Source of the DNA: Sphaerochaeta pleomorpha str. Grapes
Lineage (GTDB): Bacteria; Spirochaetota; Spirochaetia; Sphaerochaetales; Sphaerochaetaceae
DNA length: 64,000 nucleotides
Assembly (NCBI RefSeq): GCF_000236685.1
Contig: NC_016633.1
Coordinates: 2,170,001-2,234,000, forward strand
Direction: 5' to 3'
Below are positions 14,125-60,049 of the stretch, in pieces. Each line of letters begins with the position of its first letter. Within the stretch, counting starts at the first letter, position 1. The position numbers and the translations under genes were made by a program. The notes beneath the pieces are model-generated. The model saw nothing but the letters and a program-made list of their open reading frames with translations, was not told where the DNA came from and did not search any database.

Positions 14125-15702
14125 ATGAAGAAAAACATGCTTTACCTGGTTGCTTTGGTTGCTTTATTTTCACTGGCAGTAGTTCCTGTGGTAGCACAAG
14201 GAACGACAGATACAGCAAAAGCATCCGCTCCTATGACCGTTGAATTGTGGTATGGTGCTGCAATTACAGAGGCTGGGCCGCCTCCGTCCGACTGGGTTGG
14301 TTTTTCCCTCATCAGGGATAAACTGAATATCGATTTGAAGCTTACAGCCCTTCCTTCCAATGAAAGCGACCAGGATGTAAAAATCCAGGCTGCCGCTGCT
14401 GCCAACAACTTACCTGATTTGTTCATGGTAAGGCGTGATGTGCTTGTTCGTCTGGTAGGTCAGGGGTTGGTAGCCCCGGTCGATGACCTGTATGCAAAAA
14501 TGCCGGTCAGGACGGAGAATCACTATGATTCTGTCAGCAAGGCTATGGCTCGCTTCAATGGGAAAAGCTATGGGCTTTCCGATCCCGGTTCAATTGCCAG
14601 GAATGAAGGTTTGTTGATCCGGAAAGACTGGCTGGATAACCTTGGGCTTGCTGTCCCTACGACTCTGGACGAGCTGATGACGGTCCTCAAGGCCTTCACA
14701 TTCAATGATCCGGACGGGAATGGGAAAAATGATACCTGGGGCTATGGAGCATTCCAGGAAATCAACAATTTCGAAGCTTGGCCCGGCAGAAGGCTCGAAC
14801 CCCTCTTTGGTGCCTTTGGTGTCGATGGTACTTGGGATATGACCCTTTCGAGTGCAGGCCTGAATATTTTGAAGCCTGAATTCTATGATGCAATGGTTTA
14901 TCTGAAGGAAATGGTTGATACCGGGGTTATTGACCCGAACTGGCTTGCTTACAAGAAAGATGATTTCCGTGCTGCCTGGAAACAGGGAAGATTCGGCATC
15001 ATGCGTGAACAGAATGCAGCTTTTGCAGCCCAGTCGAACTATGCCCCGTTTGATAAGAATTTCCCGAACGGCCAGTGGGTTGTAATTGATCCGCCGAAGG
15101 GACCGCAAGGAAAATCTTCCATCGGACCCTACACGGCAAACTTCCGTATCTATGCAATAAGTGCAAAAGCGGCCAAGGAAGGGAAAGCGGATAAGATTGC
15201 CCAGTTGCTTGAATGGATGGCTTCCGATGAAGGTTATTTCCTTCTGGGTTGGGGTGTTGAAGGGGTGAACTATACCAAGGATGCCAACGGAATCCCAGTT
15301 GCCACCGGTCTTCCTGATGCCAATCTTGCATTCTCTGCCCCAGGTGGCCAGACAGTTACTCAGCTACGGAACATGGTCTTCTACAATGGTGATATTGAGC
15401 TGTACGCACGTTATCCTAAATATATGACCGAGGTCAGCAAAAAAGAAATGTCTGCCCTTACGGTATTGAGAGACATGCAAAGCCGGAAATGGACGCCTGC
15501 CATTGGTTCCGATACCCTGCCGATTCCCAATGCAGACCTCAAGAGGTTCTATGAGCAGGGACTCAGTGAGTTTATTACCGGTAAGAGAGTGCTTACCCCT
15601 AGCAACTGGACGAAGTGGATTGAAGAATTCAAGAAGCTTGGCGGACAGGATTGGAATGACAAGGGTGTTGCGTTTGCTAAGGAAAACAATCTTTTGAATT
15701 AG
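14125..15702 (+). CDS. Extracellular solute-binding protein, family 1, large LipO type
   Basis: 525 residues from ATG 14125, with AAGGAGG 7 bases upstream. A Sec signal peptide (about 1-25, ending VVPVVAQG) has no lipobox Cys, so the mature protein should be periplasmic rather than a lipoprotein. The mature part has the WYGAAITEAGPPP strand, the NNLPDLFMV hinge and a calcium-loop-like FNDPDGNGKNDTWGYG at about 192-207, all typical of the large binding proteins of LplABC/YtcQ systems that import pectic oligosaccharides. The GH105 hydrolase downstream supports an unsaturated rhamnogalacturonan or uronide ligand. Confidence 0.9.
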   Translation: MKKNMLYLVALVALFSLAVVPVVAQGTTDTAKASAPMTVELWYGAAITEAGPPPSDWVGFSLIRDKLNIDLKLTALPSNESDQDVKIQAAAAANNLPDLFMVRRDVLVRLVGQGLVAPVDDLYAKMPVRTENHYDSVSKAMARFNGKSYGLSDPGSIARNEGLLIRKDWLDNLGLAVPTTLDELMTVLKAFTFNDPDGNGKNDTWGYGAFQEINNFEAWPGRRLEPLFGAFGVDGTWDMTLSSAGLNILKPEFYDAMVYLKEMVDTGVIDPNWLAYKKDDFRAAWKQGRFGIMREQNAAFAAQSNYAPFDKNFPNGQWVVIDPPKGPQGKSSIGPYTANFRIYAISAKAAKEGKADKIAQLLEWMASDEGYFLLGWGVEGVNYTKDANGIPVATGLPDANLAFSAPGGQTVTQLRNMVFYNGDIELYARYPKYMTEVSKKEMSALTVLRDMQSRKWTPAIGSDTLPIPNADLKRFYEQGLSEFITGKRVLTPSNWTKWIEEFKKLGGQDWNDKGVAFAKENNLLN

Positions 15703-17184: not shown

Positions 17185-18267
17185 ATGAAGAAATTGACTG
17201 TTGTGCTTTGTGCCTTACTCATGCTCAGTTCTATGGCATTTGCCCAGGGAACTTCAGAAGCAGGTCCTGCAAAAAGCAACCTTCGGGTTGGTATGGTTAC
17301 TGATAGTGGAACGATAGATGACAAATCCTTCAACCAGGGAACTTGGGAAGGTATTGTTCGCGCTGCTGCTGACTATGGCCTTACGACCAAATACCTCAAA
17401 CCTTCAGGGACCACCGAAGCCGATTACCTGAAAGAAATCGGAAACCTTGTCGATGCCGGCTATAATTTGATTATTTGCCCCGGATTCAAGTTCGAGACTT
17501 CCCTGTATGAAGCTCAGGACAAATATCCCAAAGTAAAGTTTGTCATCCTTGACGGCGAACCCCATACCGCAGATTACCAGACTTTCCGCATTGAAAAGAA
17601 TGTTGTTGCAGTATACTGGGCAGAACAGGAATCAGGATTCCTCGCCGGGGTTGCAGCAGCTTTGCAGATGAAAGACGCAGAGTTTGGTTTTGTTGGCGGA
17701 ATGGAAATCCCCGCTGTACAGAAATTCAACTGGGGCTTCCAGCAGGGCATCAAGTATGCCAACGCAACCCATGGTACCAAGATTGTTCTCAAGCAGGAAA
17801 ACGATCTCTATCAGGGTTCATTCGATAACATCAGTGCTGGACAGCAGATTGCTGCTTCCATGTACGACAAGGGTGTTGACGTAATTTTCGCAGCCGCTGG
17901 TGGAGTTGGCGTAGGCGTTATCAACGAAGCAAAGAACAGAGCAGCAGCTGGACAGAAAGTATGGGTCATCGGTGTTGATGTAGACCAATACAGCGAAGGC
18001 GTGATGCCCAATGGGAAATCTATCATCCTGACTTCTGCCATGAAGTATCTTGATCGTGCTTCCTATGATATGATTACCAACGAATTGAACGGTACCTTCC
18101 CTGGTGGACAGGTCCTCCGCCTCAATGCAACCAACGACGGTATCGGAATCCCTGTAGAGAATCCGAACCTCTCCAAAACAGTTTCTGACGAAGTTGCCAA
18201 GGTGTATGCAATGATGAAGAGTGGCGAGATTGTAGTTGCAGCTTCTGCTGATGGACTGTACAAATAA
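17185..18267 (+). CDS. BMP/PnrA-family purine nucleoside-binding protein
   Basis: 360 residues from ATG 17185 (AGGAGAG upstream). The longer frame from 17107 lies inside the promoter and is rejected. A signal peptide of about 20 residues ends SMAFAQG with no lipobox Cys, unlike TmpC/PnrA of Treponema, which is a lipoprotein. The mature domain begins GMVTDSGTIDDKSFNQGTWEG, the BMP-family ligand loop (Asp and Phe contact the nucleoside base), and later has FVGGMEIPAVQKFNWGFQQG and VIGVDVDQ. It delivers purine nucleosides to the ABC complex encoded next. First gene of the operon. Confidence 0.92.
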   Translation: MKKLTVVLCALLMLSSMAFAQGTSEAGPAKSNLRVGMVTDSGTIDDKSFNQGTWEGIVRAAADYGLTTKYLKPSGTTEADYLKEIGNLVDAGYNLIICPGFKFETSLYEAQDKYPKVKFVILDGEPHTADYQTFRIEKNVVAVYWAEQESGFLAGVAAALQMKDAEFGFVGGMEIPAVQKFNWGFQQGIKYANATHGTKIVLKQENDLYQGSFDNISAGQQIAASMYDKGVDVIFAAAGGVGVGVINEAKNRAAAGQKVWVIGVDVDQYSEGVMPNGKSIILTSAMKYLDRASYDMITNELNGTFPGGQVLRLNATNDGIGIPVENPNLSKTVSDEVAKVYAMMKSGEIVVAASADGLYK

Positions 18268-36572: not shown

Positions 36573-38462
36573 TTGATTAAGATTTTGGTTGTCGTTCCCT
36601 ATCTAGAGCTTCAGGAACAGTTTGATAAAGTAATATCTCAGTACGATTTAGATGGTTTTTCCATCTCAACCACCCATTTTGTAGGTACCGATTCAAAGTT
36701 AATCGAAAGCCTTGATGCCGATATTGCCGTAGCCAGGGGTATTACCGCTTCTGCGATTGCCTCACAGAAACCATCCATCCATGTAGTTCCCATAATTATG
36801 GATAGCGGGGACCTCTTCGAGGCGCTGGCAAAAGTGAAGCAACGGTTTGATACCTGCCGTATCGGCATCGTCATTAATGAAGAACTATGCGGTGAGGACA
36901 TCATATCTTCACTTATCGAATATCCTGTTTCTGTTTGCAGGGTACATGACCAAGATGATGTACAGCGGGCTGTCTTTGAGCTGAAAGCCAAAGGTTGCAA
37001 GGTCTTCGTAGGGGGACTTACCCTATGCAGGATCTGCCAAAACAATGGCCTGGAATATGAACACGTAAAGACAGGAAACCAAGCTATCATCCACTCCGTG
37101 GAAGATGCCGTTGCTGCAGCACGCTCGTTGGACCGTGTGAAGACGAGGGGAAACCTCCTGCTTACCCTTTTGAACAATGCAAAGGATGCAATGCTTGCAG
37201 TAAATAGCTCAGGCGTTGTCATTGCCGGAAACCGTCAGGCTGCATCCTTGTTTGCCTGTACTCCGCTTGAAGGAAAACCAATCGAAGCCGTATACAAGGG
37301 AATCAAATGGTCTCAGTCTCTTGCCTCAGTATCTAGCCGGGAGGAATTGCAGGCAATCGGGGGCCAGCAGATTCTTGTCAGCCAGCAGCCTATCCAGGTA
37401 GATTCCCAACCCTTTGGGGTACTCTTTACATTCCAGAATGCAGAAGCTATCCGCAAATCCGAACACAAGATCAGAACTGAATTGCACCGTAAGGGACTTG
37501 TAGCCAGGTATCGGTTTGAGAATATTGTCACCCAAAACGCCCATATGCTCCAGCTGGTAGAGAAAGCAAAGCGTTTCAGCCTTGTCGATAGTCCTATCTT
37601 ATTACTCGGTGAGACGGGGACCGGAAAGGAGCTTTTTGCACAAAGTATCCATAATGCATCCCCACGTTCGCATGAACCTTTTGTTGCCGTGAACTGTGCT
37701 GCTTTGCCCGAACAGCTTCTTGAAAGTGAGTTGTTTGGGTATTCGGAAGGAGCCTTCACAGGGGCGAGCAAGGGAGGGAAAAGCGGGTTGTTCGAACTGG
37801 CCCATAAGGGAACCCTTTTCCTCGACGAGATTGGGGAGATCCCGTTGGTCCTTCAGGCCAAACTGTTACGGGTGCTCCAGGAGAAGGAAGTGAGAAAGAT
37901 CGGGGCAGATATGGTAGTCCCCGTTGATGTCAGGGTTATCAGTGCCGCAAATAGCAATATCATAGAGAAGGTCAAGACCGGCAGGTTTCGCCTTGATCTT
38001 TTCTATCGTATCAGTCTGTTGAATATTCAACTTATCCCTCTTCGTGAAAGGAAAGATGATATCGGCCTGCTGTTCACGCATTTTGTCAGGCAATATTCCT
38101 TGAAAAACAACCACCGTGTTCCTGCAGTCAATGAAGAGGCCTTTGGTGAGCTCAAGCGGTTTTTCTGGCCGGGAAATGTCCGTGAATTGAGGAATGCAGC
38201 AGAACGACTTGCAATTCTCAACAGCGTGGAATTTGTTGGGAGGGAAGAAATTGAGCAACTTGATATAGGGGCTACAAGCCTCTATGCAGAAGATGTTGTT
38301 CCCCTTCAGAAAAGGAAGAAGGTTGAAGAGAACGTTTCTTCGCCCGAAGACCAGTACCGAGCTTTTATTGCGAGCGGTTTAAGCAGGGATGCCTTTGCAC
38401 GAAAGATTGGGGTAAGCCGTACAACGCTTTGGAGGCGTTTTTCCCAATTTGAACTAGAGTAG
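36573..38462 (+). CDS. Sigma-54-dependent activator with PrpR-type sensor domain
   Basis: 629 residues from TTG 36573 (GGAGA about 9 bases upstream). Order: PrpR_N ligand-sensing domain (about 1-185), PAS domain (about 190-300), AAA+ sigma-54 domain (about 315-545) with Walker A GETGTGKE (about 345), GAFTGA loop (about 392) and the ELFGYSEGAF region, then a Fis-type helix-turn-helix (about 605-629, RKIGVSRTTLWRRF). There is no receiver domain, so it responds to a metabolite directly. It contacts sigma-54 RNA polymerase at the promoter 38648-38662 and probably binds the palindromes at 38468-38522. Confidence 0.94.
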   Translation: MIKILVVVPYLELQEQFDKVISQYDLDGFSISTTHFVGTDSKLIESLDADIAVARGITASAIASQKPSIHVVPIIMDSGDLFEALAKVKQRFDTCRIGIVINEELCGEDIISSLIEYPVSVCRVHDQDDVQRAVFELKAKGCKVFVGGLTLCRICQNNGLEYEHVKTGNQAIIHSVEDAVAAARSLDRVKTRGNLLLTLLNNAKDAMLAVNSSGVVIAGNRQAASLFACTPLEGKPIEAVYKGIKWSQSLASVSSREELQAIGGQQILVSQQPIQVDSQPFGVLFTFQNAEAIRKSEHKIRTELHRKGLVARYRFENIVTQNAHMLQLVEKAKRFSLVDSPILLLGETGTGKELFAQSIHNASPRSHEPFVAVNCAALPEQLLESELFGYSEGAFTGASKGGKSGLFELAHKGTLFLDEIGEIPLVLQAKLLRVLQEKEVRKIGADMVVPVDVRVISAANSNIIEKVKTGRFRLDLFYRISLLNIQLIPLRERKDDIGLLFTHFVRQYSLKNNHRVPAVNEEAFGELKRFFWPGNVRELRNAAERLAILNSVEFVGREEIEQLDIGATSLYAEDVVPLQKRKKVEENVSSPEDQYRAFIASGLSRDAFARKIGVSRTTLWRRFSQFELE

Positions 38463-38467
38463 CAGTA

Positions 38468-38637: not shown

Positions 38638-38647
38638 TTTTAAAAGT

Positions 38648-38662
38648 TGGCACGTTACTTGC
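38648..38662 (+). promoter_or_regulatory. Sigma-54 promoter of the pdxA-tct operon
   Basis: TGGCACG (38648-38654), 4 bases, TTGC (38659-38662): an exact match to the TGGCACG-N4-TTGC consensus with GG and GC at correct spacing, about 60 bases before the pdxA2 ATG. Confidence 0.92.
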
Positions 38663-38724
38663 TTTGTATAATGCATCGGGCAACGAAGAAAGTTGCCGGA
38701 TGACTGAATCAAAGGGAGTTTCTG

Positions 38725-57326: not shown

Positions 57327-57932
57327 TTAGGATTCTTTTTTATCCAGACCTACCAGGTATATCTCAAAAGAATCGTCCCTGCAGGCCTTTGGCTTGAAGG
57401 GCTTTACTTTTGCAAACATGCTCCGCATTGTCTGAATCAGTTCAACTTGTCCCCCGCCCTGAAAAACCTTCACCACCAGGTTGCCATGCACTTTGAGATG
57501 TTCGCTTGCAAGGTATATCACTTGCGATGCCAGGTATTCGCTACGGGAAGTGTCGACGGAACGATTACCCATTGTCATGGGTGCTACATCGCTGATTATC
57601 ACATCATAAGGACCGTTCTCAACCAGTTTCGACCGAATATCCTTGCTGAAAGCATCCCCGACAAAGGCTGTCACCGTATGAGGGATGGGATTGAGGTTTA
57701 ACGGGTTCAAATCGACTGCGATTATTTTGCCTTGCTCTTTGAGCAGGACTCTGTGGGTGAAAAGGGTCCAGGAACCAGGTGCGGCTCCGACATCAAGGAC
57801 GGAATCACCTGGTTTGACCAATTTGAAAGTGTTCTGGATTTCTTCCAGCTTATATACCGAACGGGCTGGGTAGCCCTCTTTGTGAGCTCTTTTTGTATAG
57901 GAGTCTGCACGATCTCTTCTGCTTGTTGCCAT
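57327..57932 (-). CDS. rlmE: 23S rRNA 2'-O-methyltransferase RlmE (FtsJ/RrmJ)
   Basis: 201 residues from ATG 57932 (MATSRRDRADSYTKRAHKEG). The longer frame to 58037 runs through the repeat array and is rejected. FtsJ motifs: SVYKLEEIQ with the catalytic Lys (about 24), VLDVGAAPGSWTLF SAM-binding loop (about 46-59), DVAPMTMGNRSVD (catalytic Asp, about 110) and GNLVVKVFQGGG with the second catalytic Lys (about 149). It methylates U2552 (E. coli numbering) in the A-loop of 23S rRNA. The repeat array lies directly upstream on the same strand. Confidence 0.95.
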   Translation of the reverse strand: MATSRRDRADSYTKRAHKEGYPARSVYKLEEIQNTFKLVKPGDSVLDVGAAPGSWTLFTHRVLLKEQGKIIAVDLNPLNLNPIPHTVTAFVGDAFSKDIRSKLVENGPYDVIISDVAPMTMGNRSVDTSRSEYLASQVIYLASEHLKVHGNLVVKVFQGGGQVELIQTMRSMFAKVKPFKPKACRDDSFEIYLVGLDKKES

Positions 57933-57969: not shown

Positions 57970-58110
57970 GGCAAAGAGAAAGTGCCAGCGAATATTTGGT
58001 GGGGTGGGGAGAGAATCGCTGGCACCTTGGAAATCACACTTTAAGGAGGTTTGAAAAAAACTGTTGCTCTGTTGATAACTATGATGCAAAACCCGTGCCA
58101 ACTTTGAAAA
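57970..58110 (-). ncRNA. Candidate small RNA, array copy A
   Basis: Minus-strand reading. A TACAGT-type -10 box (58120-58115) precedes the body, which has anti-Shine-Dalgarno CCTCCTT (complement of 58043-58049). It ends in the hairpin 57982-57991/58016-58025 with a weak tail TTTCTCTTTG. Ends are approximate. This copy has one stem mismatch and the weakest tail, and lies 50 bases before the rlmE start, so read-through into rlmE is possible. Confidence 0.4.
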
Positions 58111-58329
58111 TCTTACTGTAGGACATTATTAATTACTTTAGGAACAATATAACAGCTACATCAGTGAAAAGCTGCTGTGAAAAAAAGTAACAGTACACAA
58201 GACTGTTACACGTATGGCCTTCACTATGGAAAATAAGCATGTTTCTGGAGAACGCACACGAGAGAAAGCTGCGATCTAGTGGGAAAGGGGCTTATTGTTG
58301 TTTGTTTTAAAAATAGATAGGTCTTGGAA

Positions 58330-58488
58330 CAAAAGGAAGGTGCCAGCGAATATTTGGTGGGGTGGAGAGAATCGCTGGCACCTTGAAAATCACACTTTAA
58401 GGAGGTTTGAAAAAAACTGTTGCTCTGTTCATTTATAATGTTGCAATTGCCGTGCCAATTTCCTTGAAATTGACCTATGGTTATAAAA
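58330..58488 (-). ncRNA. Candidate small RNA, array copy B
   Basis: Minus-strand reading. TATAGT (58498-58493) is the best -10 box of the four; no convincing -35. The body carries CCTCCTT (complement of 58399-58405). The terminator is a perfect 13-bp stem (58337-58349 with 58372-58384) followed by CCTTTTGTT. Ends are approximate. Confidence 0.48.
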
Positions 58489-58692
58489 AATCACTATAAG
58501 AATACTATTATGCTTTAGCCTATGCTTGTCTGCTGTGAAAAAAAGTAACAGCATACAAAGAGTTTACACTTCGGCTGATCATAAGGTTTATTTGGTTGAA
58601 GTGTTTCTATAGGTATGTTCTGATGCTTAAGAGAATACGGGGACTGCTGTGGAAGGACTTCTTTTCCCCAGGTAGGAATACCACTCTTTGGG

Positions 58693-58844
58693 CAAAAAGA
58701 AGGTGCCAGCGAATATTGGGTGGGGAGAGAAGCGCTGGCACCTAAGAAATCACATTTTAAGGAGGTTTGAAAAAACTGTTGCTCTGTTCAATAATAATGC
58801 AATTGCCGTGCCAACTTCCTTTATATGAACAAAGGGAATGTAAA
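58693..58844 (-). ncRNA. Candidate small RNA, array copy C
   Basis: Minus-strand reading. TATAGT (58855-58850), CCTCCTT (complement of 58759-58765), terminator stem 58701-58711/58733-58743 followed by TCTTTTTG, the best U-tract of the four. Here AAGGAGGTT on the plus strand faces AACTTCCTT, so the anti-SD segment could be partly paired within the same RNA. Ends are approximate. Confidence 0.48.
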
Positions 58845-59055
58845 AAACAACTATAGGCATGTTATTTGAGAGAAATCTTGAATCATGTACTGTGAAAAAA
58901 AGTAACAGTCTTCAAGTATGTTACACTTTCTGTAGCTAAGGGAGATAGGTTTCGAGGTTATCGGGGGAACCAAAACAGCTATGCAAAAGAAAAATACATG
59001 TTTCTCCATACTGTAGCGAAAGTAAGCCGATTCTCTTTGGTTGGATTGTTTTGGA

Positions 59056-59210
59056 CAAAATGAAGGTGCCAGCGAATATTTGGTGGGGAGAGAATCGCTG
59101 GCACCTAAGAAATCACATTTTAAAAGGAGGTTTGAAAAAAACTGTTGCTCTGTTCAATAAGTATAGTGCAGGAGCCGTGCCAACTTTAAAATACATTCTA
59201 AAAGAAATAA
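59056..59210 (-). ncRNA. Candidate small RNA, array copy D
   Basis: Minus-strand reading. TTTAGT (59222-59217), CCTCCTT (complement of 59124-59130), terminator stem 59064-59075/59095-59106, tail TCATTTTG. Two extra A/T bases lie next to the anti-SD segment compared with the other copies. Ends are approximate. Confidence 0.45.
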
Positions 59211-59407
59211 AAAATCACTAAAAGTAATTCTTGCAAAGGTGTTTTGTTGGGTAATGCTGTGAAAAAAAGTAACAGCATGGCATTTTTTCACACTTGTAAA
59301 GAATCTGTTTCCGTAGGTTGCTTTAGGTGCTGGGGGCAATATGCCAAGATTAATAGCTAAATCTTTTCTGATTGACGAATTGCCCCTACATCGATACTTT
59401 ATTGTGT

Positions 59408-60049
59408 ATGAATACAGGCAAAAGCATAATCAACCGGAGATTCCGGAACAATACGTATACGAATATCACACTCAAACTGATAATCATCAATGCAGTGGTT
59501 TTCCTTCTTACCACATACATAGCTCCTAGGAGCGCCTATTATCTGGCAATGATTCCTTCGTTCGTCCTGCATGGATATATCTGGCAGTTCTTTACCTATA
59601 TGTTCGTACACGGCGGTTTTTCCCATATATTCTTCAATATGCTCAGTCTCTTTATTTTTGGGACAATGGTGGAACAAAGGGTTGGGAGTAAAGAGTTTCT
59701 GCTCTTTTACCTATTAACAGGAATCGTAAGTGGTATTATTAGCTTCCTGTGTTATCTGGCAGCAGGGACGAATGTAATTCTCGTGGGAGCTTCCGGCGCA
59801 ATTTATGGGGTTTTGTTGATGTTTGCGGTTTTTTATCCCTATGCCCGGGTTTTTGTTTTTGGTCTCATCCCTATAAGGGCACCTGTGCTTGTGGTCCTCT
59901 ATGCGTTCATTGAACTTTCCAGCCAGGTTTTCGGCGCAGGCGGCAATGTTGCACACCTTACCCATCTCAGTGGGCTTCTCTTTGCCTACCTCTATTGTAG
60001 GATACGGATGAAAATAAACCCAATCGATGTATGGAAACGGACCATGTGA
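59408..60049 (+). CDS. Rhomboid-family intramembrane serine protease
   Basis: 213 residues from ATG 59408; a TTG at 59372 would add 12 residues, and neither has a clear ribosome site. Six helices. Rhomboid features: the L1-loop region FFTYMFVHGGFSHIFFNMLSLFIFG (in parts, about 60-84), catalytic Ser in VGASGAIYG (about 135-143) and catalytic His in HLTHLSGLL (about 190-198). It cleaves membrane proteins within the bilayer; substrates unknown. The stop lies inside the hairpin at 60034-60062. Confidence 0.9.
   Translation: MNTGKSIINRRFRNNTYTNITLKLIIINAVVFLLTTYIAPRSAYYLAMIPSFVLHGYIWQFFTYMFVHGGFSHIFFNMLSLFIFGTMVEQRVGSKEFLLFYLLTGIVSGIISFLCYLAAGTNVILVGASGAIYGVLLMFAVFYPYARVFVFGLIPIRAPVLVVLYAFIELSSQVFGAGGNVAHLTHLSGLLFAYLYCRIRMKINPIDVWKRTM

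Follow-up and report, generated by a model that had tools for sequence, protein, structure and literature searches.

The window (the whole 64,000-nucleotide stretch of Sphaerochaeta pleomorpha str. Grapes DNA that was analysed) carries four tandem units at positions 57970-59293, with a start-to-start spacing of 358, 363, and 363 bp. Alignment of the four units revealed conserved blocks and unlike spacers, and no copy beyond these four was found in the 3.59-Mb genome. The array is flanked by two genes which we take to be rlmE/ftsJ-like and rhomboid-like, the names being given by sequence knowledge; in our reading, neither neighbour is part of the RNA system. The features are as follows.

57327..57930, minus strand: rlmE/ftsJ-like 23S rRNA methyltransferase gene, downstream neighbour, start approximate (cluster c0, 21 loci)
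57970..58075, minus strand: sRNA copy A, predicted transcript, 5' end near 58075 (R1 match 103 bits; fold z -3.4)
58086..58101, minus strand: sigma54 -24/-12 element of copy A, TTGGCACGGGTTTTGC (pattern match; column counts over 107 copies)
58176..58192, minus strand: upstream palindrome of copy A, TGTTACTTTTTTTCACA, putative enhancer-binding-protein site (palindrome search)
58328..58432, minus strand: sRNA copy B, predicted transcript (R1 match 106 bits; fold z -4.4)
58443..58458, minus strand: sigma54 element of copy B, TTGGCACGGCAATTGC (pattern match; column counts over 107 copies)
58534..58550, minus strand: upstream palindrome of copy B (palindrome search)
58691..58787, minus strand: sRNA copy C, predicted transcript (R1 match 101 bits; fold z -3.4)
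58799..58814, minus strand: sigma54 element of copy C, TTGGCACGGCAATTGC (pattern match; column counts over 107 copies)
58891..58907, minus strand: upstream palindrome of copy C (palindrome search)
59054..59153, minus strand: sRNA copy D, predicted transcript (R1 match 98 bits; fold z -4.0)
59168..59183, minus strand: sigma54 element of copy D, TTGGCACGGCTCCTGC, with C replacing the usual T of TTGC (sequence; pattern match)
59258..59274, minus strand: upstream palindrome of copy D (palindrome search)
59372..60049, plus strand: rhomboid-like membrane protease gene, upstream neighbour (cluster c1, 20 loci)

Comparison between copies shows that the minus strand is the coding strand of the array; its transcription is inferred. 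On this strand, 71 distinct copies of the family shared one layout, consisting of TTGGCACG-N4-TTGC(A/T), a gap of 13-24 nt to AGCAA, the block ACAGAGCAACAG-T(6-7)-CA-N(0-7)-CCTCCTT, and then a GC hairpin and T-rich DNA. The RNA is predicted to start at the conserved ACAGAGCAACAG, and its unpaired 5' half contains ACCUCCUU, the invariant core of the molecule. The RNAs predicted in the window measure 97-106 nt. Their minus-strand transcripts folded 3.4-4.4 s.d. better than shuffled sequences, with ACCUCCUU unpaired, and the plus-strand folds were less significant. Paralogue classes of the sRNA exist that differ in detail, such as type 2 (CATACUCCUCCUUUUUC...). The plus-strand blocks GCCGTGCCAACTT and CTGTGAAAAAAAGTAACAG lie outside the RNA and correspond, on the minus strand, to the sigma54 promoter and the upstream palindrome.

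The hairpins of the window have stems of 11-13 bp and are followed, on the minus strand, by TCTCTTTG in copy A (the weakest), CCTTTTGTT in copy B, TCTTTTTG in copy C, and TCATTTTG in copy D. Copy A combines a 13-bp stem and a 24-nt CU/C-rich loop with a weak T tract, which we count as a point against our explanation. Minus-strand termination at the hairpin is supported by the other genera, many of which have a run of 5-8 T after the hairpin; there, the hairpin sequence was almost wholly changed and the pairing kept. Among 86 aligned copies, 97.2% of the cells of the terminator stem were paired, versus 35-50% when the stem was slid, and two-sided changes were present in all eight pairs. The covariation score was 0.95, versus 0.24 for shuffled and 0.09-0.18 for slid partners. 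Since this alignment was fitted to the covariance model, the pairing counts lean towards that model. The features expected of an intrinsically terminated sRNA were thus met: a conserved GC stem with compensatory changes, a U run, an intergenic position, and no open reading frame. Comparison supports reading each unit as a complete sRNA gene, with an upstream palindrome, a sigma54 promoter, a predicted start, an unpaired 5' half, and an intrinsic terminator, the transcription of which remains an inference.

An earlier note, made from sequence alone, had described four tandem units with periods of 358, 363, and 363, conserved blocks and unlike spacers, as well as minus-strand GC hairpins with T-rich tracts, weaker in copy A. 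Both descriptions held, the former by alignment. Its proposal of minus-strand sRNA genes with intrinsic terminators is supported by the comparative evidence, with expression still inferred. The RNA length it gave (130-170 nt) failed against the predicted length of about 97-106 nt, and it had missed the sigma54 promoter of every copy and the upstream palindrome of most.

Each unit exhibited a near-perfect sigma54 -24/-12 promoter, TTGGCACG-N4-TTGC. The element was present in all 71 family copies first read, for which the search pattern itself required an approximate sigma54 element. We also examined 107 copies gathered by their RNA body, allowing up to four mismatches in the sigma54 element: the TT of the -24 region and the G of the -12 region were invariant, and the GG and the C of the -12 GC were each conserved in 106 out of the 107. 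As the element lies 13-24 nt before AGCAA, the +1 position is predicted at or near ACAGAGC. The pattern of a sigma54 element, 15-45 nt, and CCTCCTT occurred in 65 of 92 Sphaerochaetaceae genomes, compared with 6 of 303 from the rest of the class (family split counted from the result table), and a reversed-pattern control matched in 5 of 395 genomes. Five of the six non-family matches look like chance matches in coding sequence, and one (G530, family f61) looks real. Strict sigma54 sites numbered only eight in the S. pleomorpha genome, and the array accounted for three; the RpoN domain PF04552 was detected in all 22 genomes searched. Two features of the sigma54 (RpoN)-dependent promoter class, a -24/-12 element and the presence of RpoN, were thus observed; an enhancer site rests on the palindromes described below, to which no EBP could be linked, and the dependence of the transcript on rpoN is inferred.

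Two other sigma54 sites are worth recording. A sigma54 element precedes an RpoS-like sigma-70 family gene near the Rrp2-like EBP in two genera (L091, about genome position 600012; L295, position 8517), and it is possible that the RpoN-to-RpoS cascade of Borrelia is ancestral in spirochaetes. Within the window, a PrpR-type EBP gene (36573-38463) is followed by a strict sigma54 site, TTGGCACGTTACTTGCT, at 38647-38663, which fronts a pdxA-like gene and genes of a TTT-type transporter.

Upstream of the promoters, palindromes took the forms GTGTGAAA-N-TTTCACAC, GTGCAA-N3-TTGCAC, and TGTTACTTTTTTTCACA. They were found in 45 out of 84 copies versus 0.24 ± 0.47 in shuffled sequences, at a median of 84 nt before the -24 element (91-93 nt for copies A-C of the window). 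The contrast with the shuffles is somewhat inflated, because these very copies had served to write the regular expression. Such a distance is the usual place of an enhancer-binding-protein (EBP) site.

The EBPs encoded by the S. pleomorpha genome include one beside a kinase gene and murG, which we take, by gene order, to match the Borrelia rrp2 neighbourhood; a second response-regulator EBP with a kinase and an ABC permease; a PspF-like protein; and a PrpR-like protein. The Rrp2-like and the second response-regulator EBPs were present in nearly all sRNA-bearing genomes tested, and the genomes of genus g22 had neither the sRNA nor a full-length Rrp2-like EBP. PspF was favoured at first, its gene being 19-41 kb away from the array in several genomes, and was then set aside: the psp promoters lack the palindrome, and one genome (G017) has the sRNA (L288) without any PspF-class match. 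A response-regulator EBP is favoured because of this distribution across genomes. It remains no more than a possible activator, with a weak leaning towards the Rrp2-like one, and its identity is inferred. No sRNA-type palindrome was found at the EBP loci examined in S. pleomorpha and other genomes, so that the activator is unidentified.

Two irregular EBP loci were also seen. At L094 (genome positions 2246000-2253500), a Psp region with PspF appeared to be duplicated, since near-identical sigma54 sites occur there as two pairs, spaced by about 4.8 and 3.8 kb. At L095 (6337-7460), an EBP gene was split in two frames, its sigma54-activation domain lying in two overlapping open reading frames; this may be a pseudogene.

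By BLAST, the unit was present in 105 out of 139 Sphaerochaetaceae genomes, usually in one to four copies. The array mostly lay between rlmE and the rhomboid gene, near adenosine deaminase, ankyrin, and proS genes, and a minority was located elsewhere. A covariance model matched inside the Sphaerochaetaceae, with weak matches outside. A search of the window against Rfam, at gathering and relaxed thresholds, returned no match, and the unit matched nothing in the phage and plasmid collections.

The 5' half of the RNA is antisense to a whole translation start region, comprising the Shine-Dalgarno (SD) sequence, AUG-AAA-AAA, and Leu codons, with duplexes spanning about -28 to +30 around the AUG. 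We scored nt 1-43 of the RNA against 1,172 self-called open reading frames from 1.26 Mb of the 3.59-Mb S. pleomorpha genome; the energies ignore mRNA folding and accessibility, and gene starts as well as signal-peptide and solute-binding-protein (SBP) flags are heuristic. Signal-peptide genes exhibited a mean duplex energy of -19.6 kcal/mol, versus -15.9 kcal/mol for the others (p 1.6e-15), and made up 45% of the top 100 pairings versus a base of 13.7%. Those with an SBP-like cleavage region paired best (-23.2 versus -17.4 and -15.4). The preference for signal-peptide genes persisted at equal SD length (5, 6, or 7). The top secreted targets that we scanned were all of solute-binding or periplasmic type (10 out of 10: nine SBP families and DUF3798), and included SBP families 1, 3, and 8, TctC, DctP, Bmp, NMT1_3, and DUF3798; the solute-binding targets belong to ABC, TRAP, and TTT transporters. 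Two of the top-ranking targets are the genes at window positions 14125-15702 and 17185-18267.

When nt 1-11, 12-29, 30-43, or all were permuted, the SBP preference in S. pleomorpha was partly or wholly lost, and none of the 320 permuted RNAs reached the real difference. An earlier permutation test had been run on all signal-peptide genes of this genome. In a genome of another genus (G077; 40 signal-peptide genes), the preference for signal-peptide genes was weaker (p 0.008), and the real difference was reached by 19 of 60 RNAs permuted at nt 1-11 and by 34 of 60 permuted at nt 30-44; only permutation of nt 12-29 or of all positions abolished it. Thus, most of the effect comes from nt 12-29 in both genomes tested, and the evidence for a fine tuning of nt 1-11 and 30-43 is confined to S. 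pleomorpha. Pairing with the SD region of SBP mRNAs above chance was met in S. pleomorpha and more weakly in G077, while repression of these mRNAs is inferred.

A search for the RNA core pattern over 84,980 species returned at least 118 stretches. A sigma54 element accompanied 52 of the 123 matches, and the record titles examined for these were all spirochaetes. Among the 71 without it, 56 were antisense to the start of an open reading frame, including 48 with a hydrophobic N-terminus. These gene-start matches are partly built in, because the pattern holds anti-SD and anti-AUGAAAAAA. The 5' block of the RNA had only one weak complement outside the array in the S. pleomorpha genome (up to three mismatches), so that no single dedicated target stands out.

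These results bear on the remaining proposals of the earlier note. The exposed anti-SD it had pointed to is supported, with a wider pairing region that takes in the SD, the start codon, and the first codons of secreted-protein genes, and the multicopy sRNA family it had inferred is supported by comparison. The two computational checks it had suggested yielded, for the covariance-model search, the sRNA in the family with only weak matches beyond it and, for target prediction, mRNA starts of signal-peptide and solute-binding genes as the best partners. Dispersed DNA repeats, which it had named as a refutation, are rejected: the array occupies one syntenic locus next to rlmE, and no copy was found in the rest of the genome.

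We propose that an envelope or nutrient signal would act through a response-regulator EBP and RpoN polymerase to switch on the four sRNAs. Each RNA of about 100 nt would be started by sigma54 polymerase only upon the action of an enhancer-type activator, probably from the palindrome about 90 bp upstream of the -24 element; the best candidates would be the Rrp2-like EBP (ortholog of Borrelia Rrp2 by gene order) and the second conserved response-regulator EBP. The single-stranded 5' half, ACAGAGCAACAG-U6/7-CAAACCUCCUU-AAAGUGUGAUUU, would pair with the SD, the AUG, and codons 2-8 of mRNAs, and would keep ribosomes off those messages in which AUG-AAA-AAA and Leu codons come after a strong SD. The repressed messages would be those of signal-peptide genes, chiefly the solute-binding proteins of ABC, TRAP, and TTT transporters. 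Several copies may provide a higher dosage and room for paralogue divergence. No Hfq was found in any of the 12 genomes searched, and a control search detected it in 5 of 14 named genomes; pairing would therefore be Hfq-independent, and the long complementarity may replace a chaperone.

The gene anatomy, the strand, the terminator covariation, the conservation of the promoter, the synteny, and the target complementarity above permuted controls are shown by comparison. The likely reading is that of multicopy sRNAs which depend on RpoN, are switched by an activator, act without Hfq, and repress mRNAs of uptake and secretion; no expression data exist, and transcription, activator, repression, and signal are all inferred. 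A bolder version, which could as well be wrong as right when taken as a whole, is that of an ancient, Sphaerochaetaceae-wide, sigma54-switched family whose RNA is a near-universal antisense of SD-AUG-AAA-AAA-Leu, shutting the solute-uptake secretome without Hfq.

Other explanations were considered. The sRNAs could be a general translation brake, sigma54-dependent RNAs whose ACCUCCUU binds any SD like the 16S tail, without preference for secreted proteins. The invariance of ACCUCCUU and the dominant effect of nt 12-29 in both genomes speak for this; however, signal-peptide genes pair better at each SD length, and SBP pairing in S. pleomorpha was weakened by permuting nt 1-11 or nt 30-43 alone (0 of 100 reaching the real value in each case), which makes a general brake unlikely. 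We also regard as unlikely that the RNA has one or a few specific mRNA targets, for example a regulator, the solute-binding fit being a side effect of a common start sequence. Secreted proteins in all bacteria share SD, MKK, and Leu starts, so that any anti-start RNA would seem to be aimed at them, and the paralogue classes differ in detail. Against this, no long unique complement exists elsewhere in the genome, and each of the three RNA segments adds SBP pairing beyond its permuted versions.

The functional element could instead lie on the plus strand, either as a GGA-rich CsrA/RsmA sponge (GGGGAGAG in a hairpin loop and AAGGAGG) or as a leader peptide (GGAGG-UAUGAAAAAACUGUUGCUC), and that strand does hold GGA motifs and an apparent SD-AUG-AAA-AAA. 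This is very unlikely: the hairpin is followed by a T tract only on the minus strand, the sigma54 element is oriented towards the minus strand, and the plus strand folds less significantly. The leader peptide was rejected, its reading frames being broken by the varying lengths of the A-run and spacer. Finally, the copies are tandem and near-identical, as would be REP-like dispersed repeats or a mobile element without expression; the presence of only four genome copies, the single syntenic place across many genera, the lack of phage or plasmid matches, and the compensatory stem changes all but exclude this.

The sigma54-switched sRNA reading invites comparison with known systems. LhrC1-5 of Listeria monocytogenes comprises five copies of about 111-114 nt, controlled by a two-component system upon cell-envelope stress, and blocks translation through CU-rich motifs in single-stranded regions and in the terminator loop; for lapB regulation, Hfq is dispensable (PMC4132741). 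The array resembles it in copy number, two-component control (proposed here), start-site blocking, and dispensability of Hfq. However, LhrC has three redundant UCCC sites, whereas the array sRNA has one ACCUCCUU, a CU/C-rich terminator loop, and a long antisense start region; moreover, the sigma54 promoter and enhancer palindrome, both present in the array, are not described for LhrC in the bearing sections of that paper. AbcR1 and AbcR2 (alpha-r15) of the Rhizobiales are tandem homologous sRNAs with an exposed anti-SD, and AbcR1 represses livK, a periplasmic solute-binding mRNA (PMC3712013). Tandem genes, exposed anti-SD, and a solute-binding target (predicted for the array) are shared. AbcR, however, carries UCCUCCC in a 5' hairpin loop, with three hairpins and Hfq-dependent stability (PMC3712013), whereas the array sRNA has a linear 5' half, the terminator as its only hairpin, and a sigma54 promoter, in genomes where no Hfq was found.

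Qrr sRNAs of Vibrio have sigma54 promoters activated by an enhancer-binding protein, often in several copies (PMC10162802). For the most part, their copies are scattered and depend on Hfq, and their targets belong to quorum sensing. The array sRNAs likewise have sigma54 promoters and multiple copies, with EBP activation proposed here; unlike Qrr, they lack an Rfam match, and no Hfq was found in the 12 genomes searched. GlmY and GlmZ of the Enterobacteriaceae are sigma54-dependent sRNA genes tied to envelope metabolism (PMC3162934; PMC7073468); GlmZ activates glmS and GlmY is a RapZ decoy, neither is known to repress secreted-protein mRNAs by anti-SD, and no Rfam match was obtained here. As no Rfam model matched and the architecture differs, the array sRNAs do not belong to LhrC, AbcR, Qrr, or GlmY/GlmZ. 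By analogy, they probably combine Qrr-like control with AbcR/LhrC-like targeting, as a member of neither group. In spirochaetes, the Borrelia Rrp2-RpoN-RpoS pathway is a sigma54/EBP switch activating rpoS (PMC2940757, PMC1976401). S. pleomorpha resembles it in two respects: a kinase gene and murG adjoin the gene of an Rrp2-like EBP, and an RpoS-like gene is preceded by a sigma54 element; unlike in the activation of Borrelia rpoS, three to four of its strictest sigma54 sites front sRNAs.

Spirochaete sRNAs outside Borrelia are little described. We found no description of Sphaerochaeta sRNAs in the open-access literature searched, most subscription papers being outside its scope. Here, comparison alone yielded a putative activator site, a promoter, a predicted start, a pairing region, a terminator, and predicted targets in ranked order. 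If the proposal is true, a single stress signal could shut many uptake systems at once, expression not having been shown, and a bacterium without Hfq would control dozens of transporter mRNAs through the signal-peptide codons common to their start regions rather than gene by gene. It would also add a clear non-proteobacterial case of sigma54-controlled tandem sRNAs, and make the role of sigma54 in non-pathogenic spirochaetes testable.

Outside the family, the covariance matches were not retained: the f9 genomes have a similar body without the sigma54 element, and G452 looks like chance. In this family f9, a conserved CUUUUCAUAAACCUCCUUUUAUGUGU, a GC hairpin, and T8 lie between cytidine-deaminase-like and phosphoglucose-isomerase-like genes (L284 3792-3875, plus strand; L285 3995-4077, minus strand; L286 1168-1250, plus strand), with an extra CU-rich-loop hairpin just upstream and no sigma54 element. 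A distant relative in f61 (L308 1340-1560, minus strand) exhibited a sigma54 element, CATACCTCCTTT, a second CCTCCTT about 100 nt further on, a GC hairpin, and T7; we read it as a longer, two-site version of the sRNA.

A different, second anti-SD RNA candidate was also observed, with the structure ACCUCCUUUUG..UUCCCCUCAGGG-loop with ACCUCCUUUU-CCCUGAGGGG-U6-8 and no sigma54 element. It carries one CCUCCUUUU in a single-stranded region and another in the terminator loop. Its loci were L425 118-200, L427 1501-1583, and L428 1501-1576 (all minus strand), and L431 1501-1578 (plus strand). This candidate was present in f61, and in G116 and G023, where the sigma54 sRNA family was not found.
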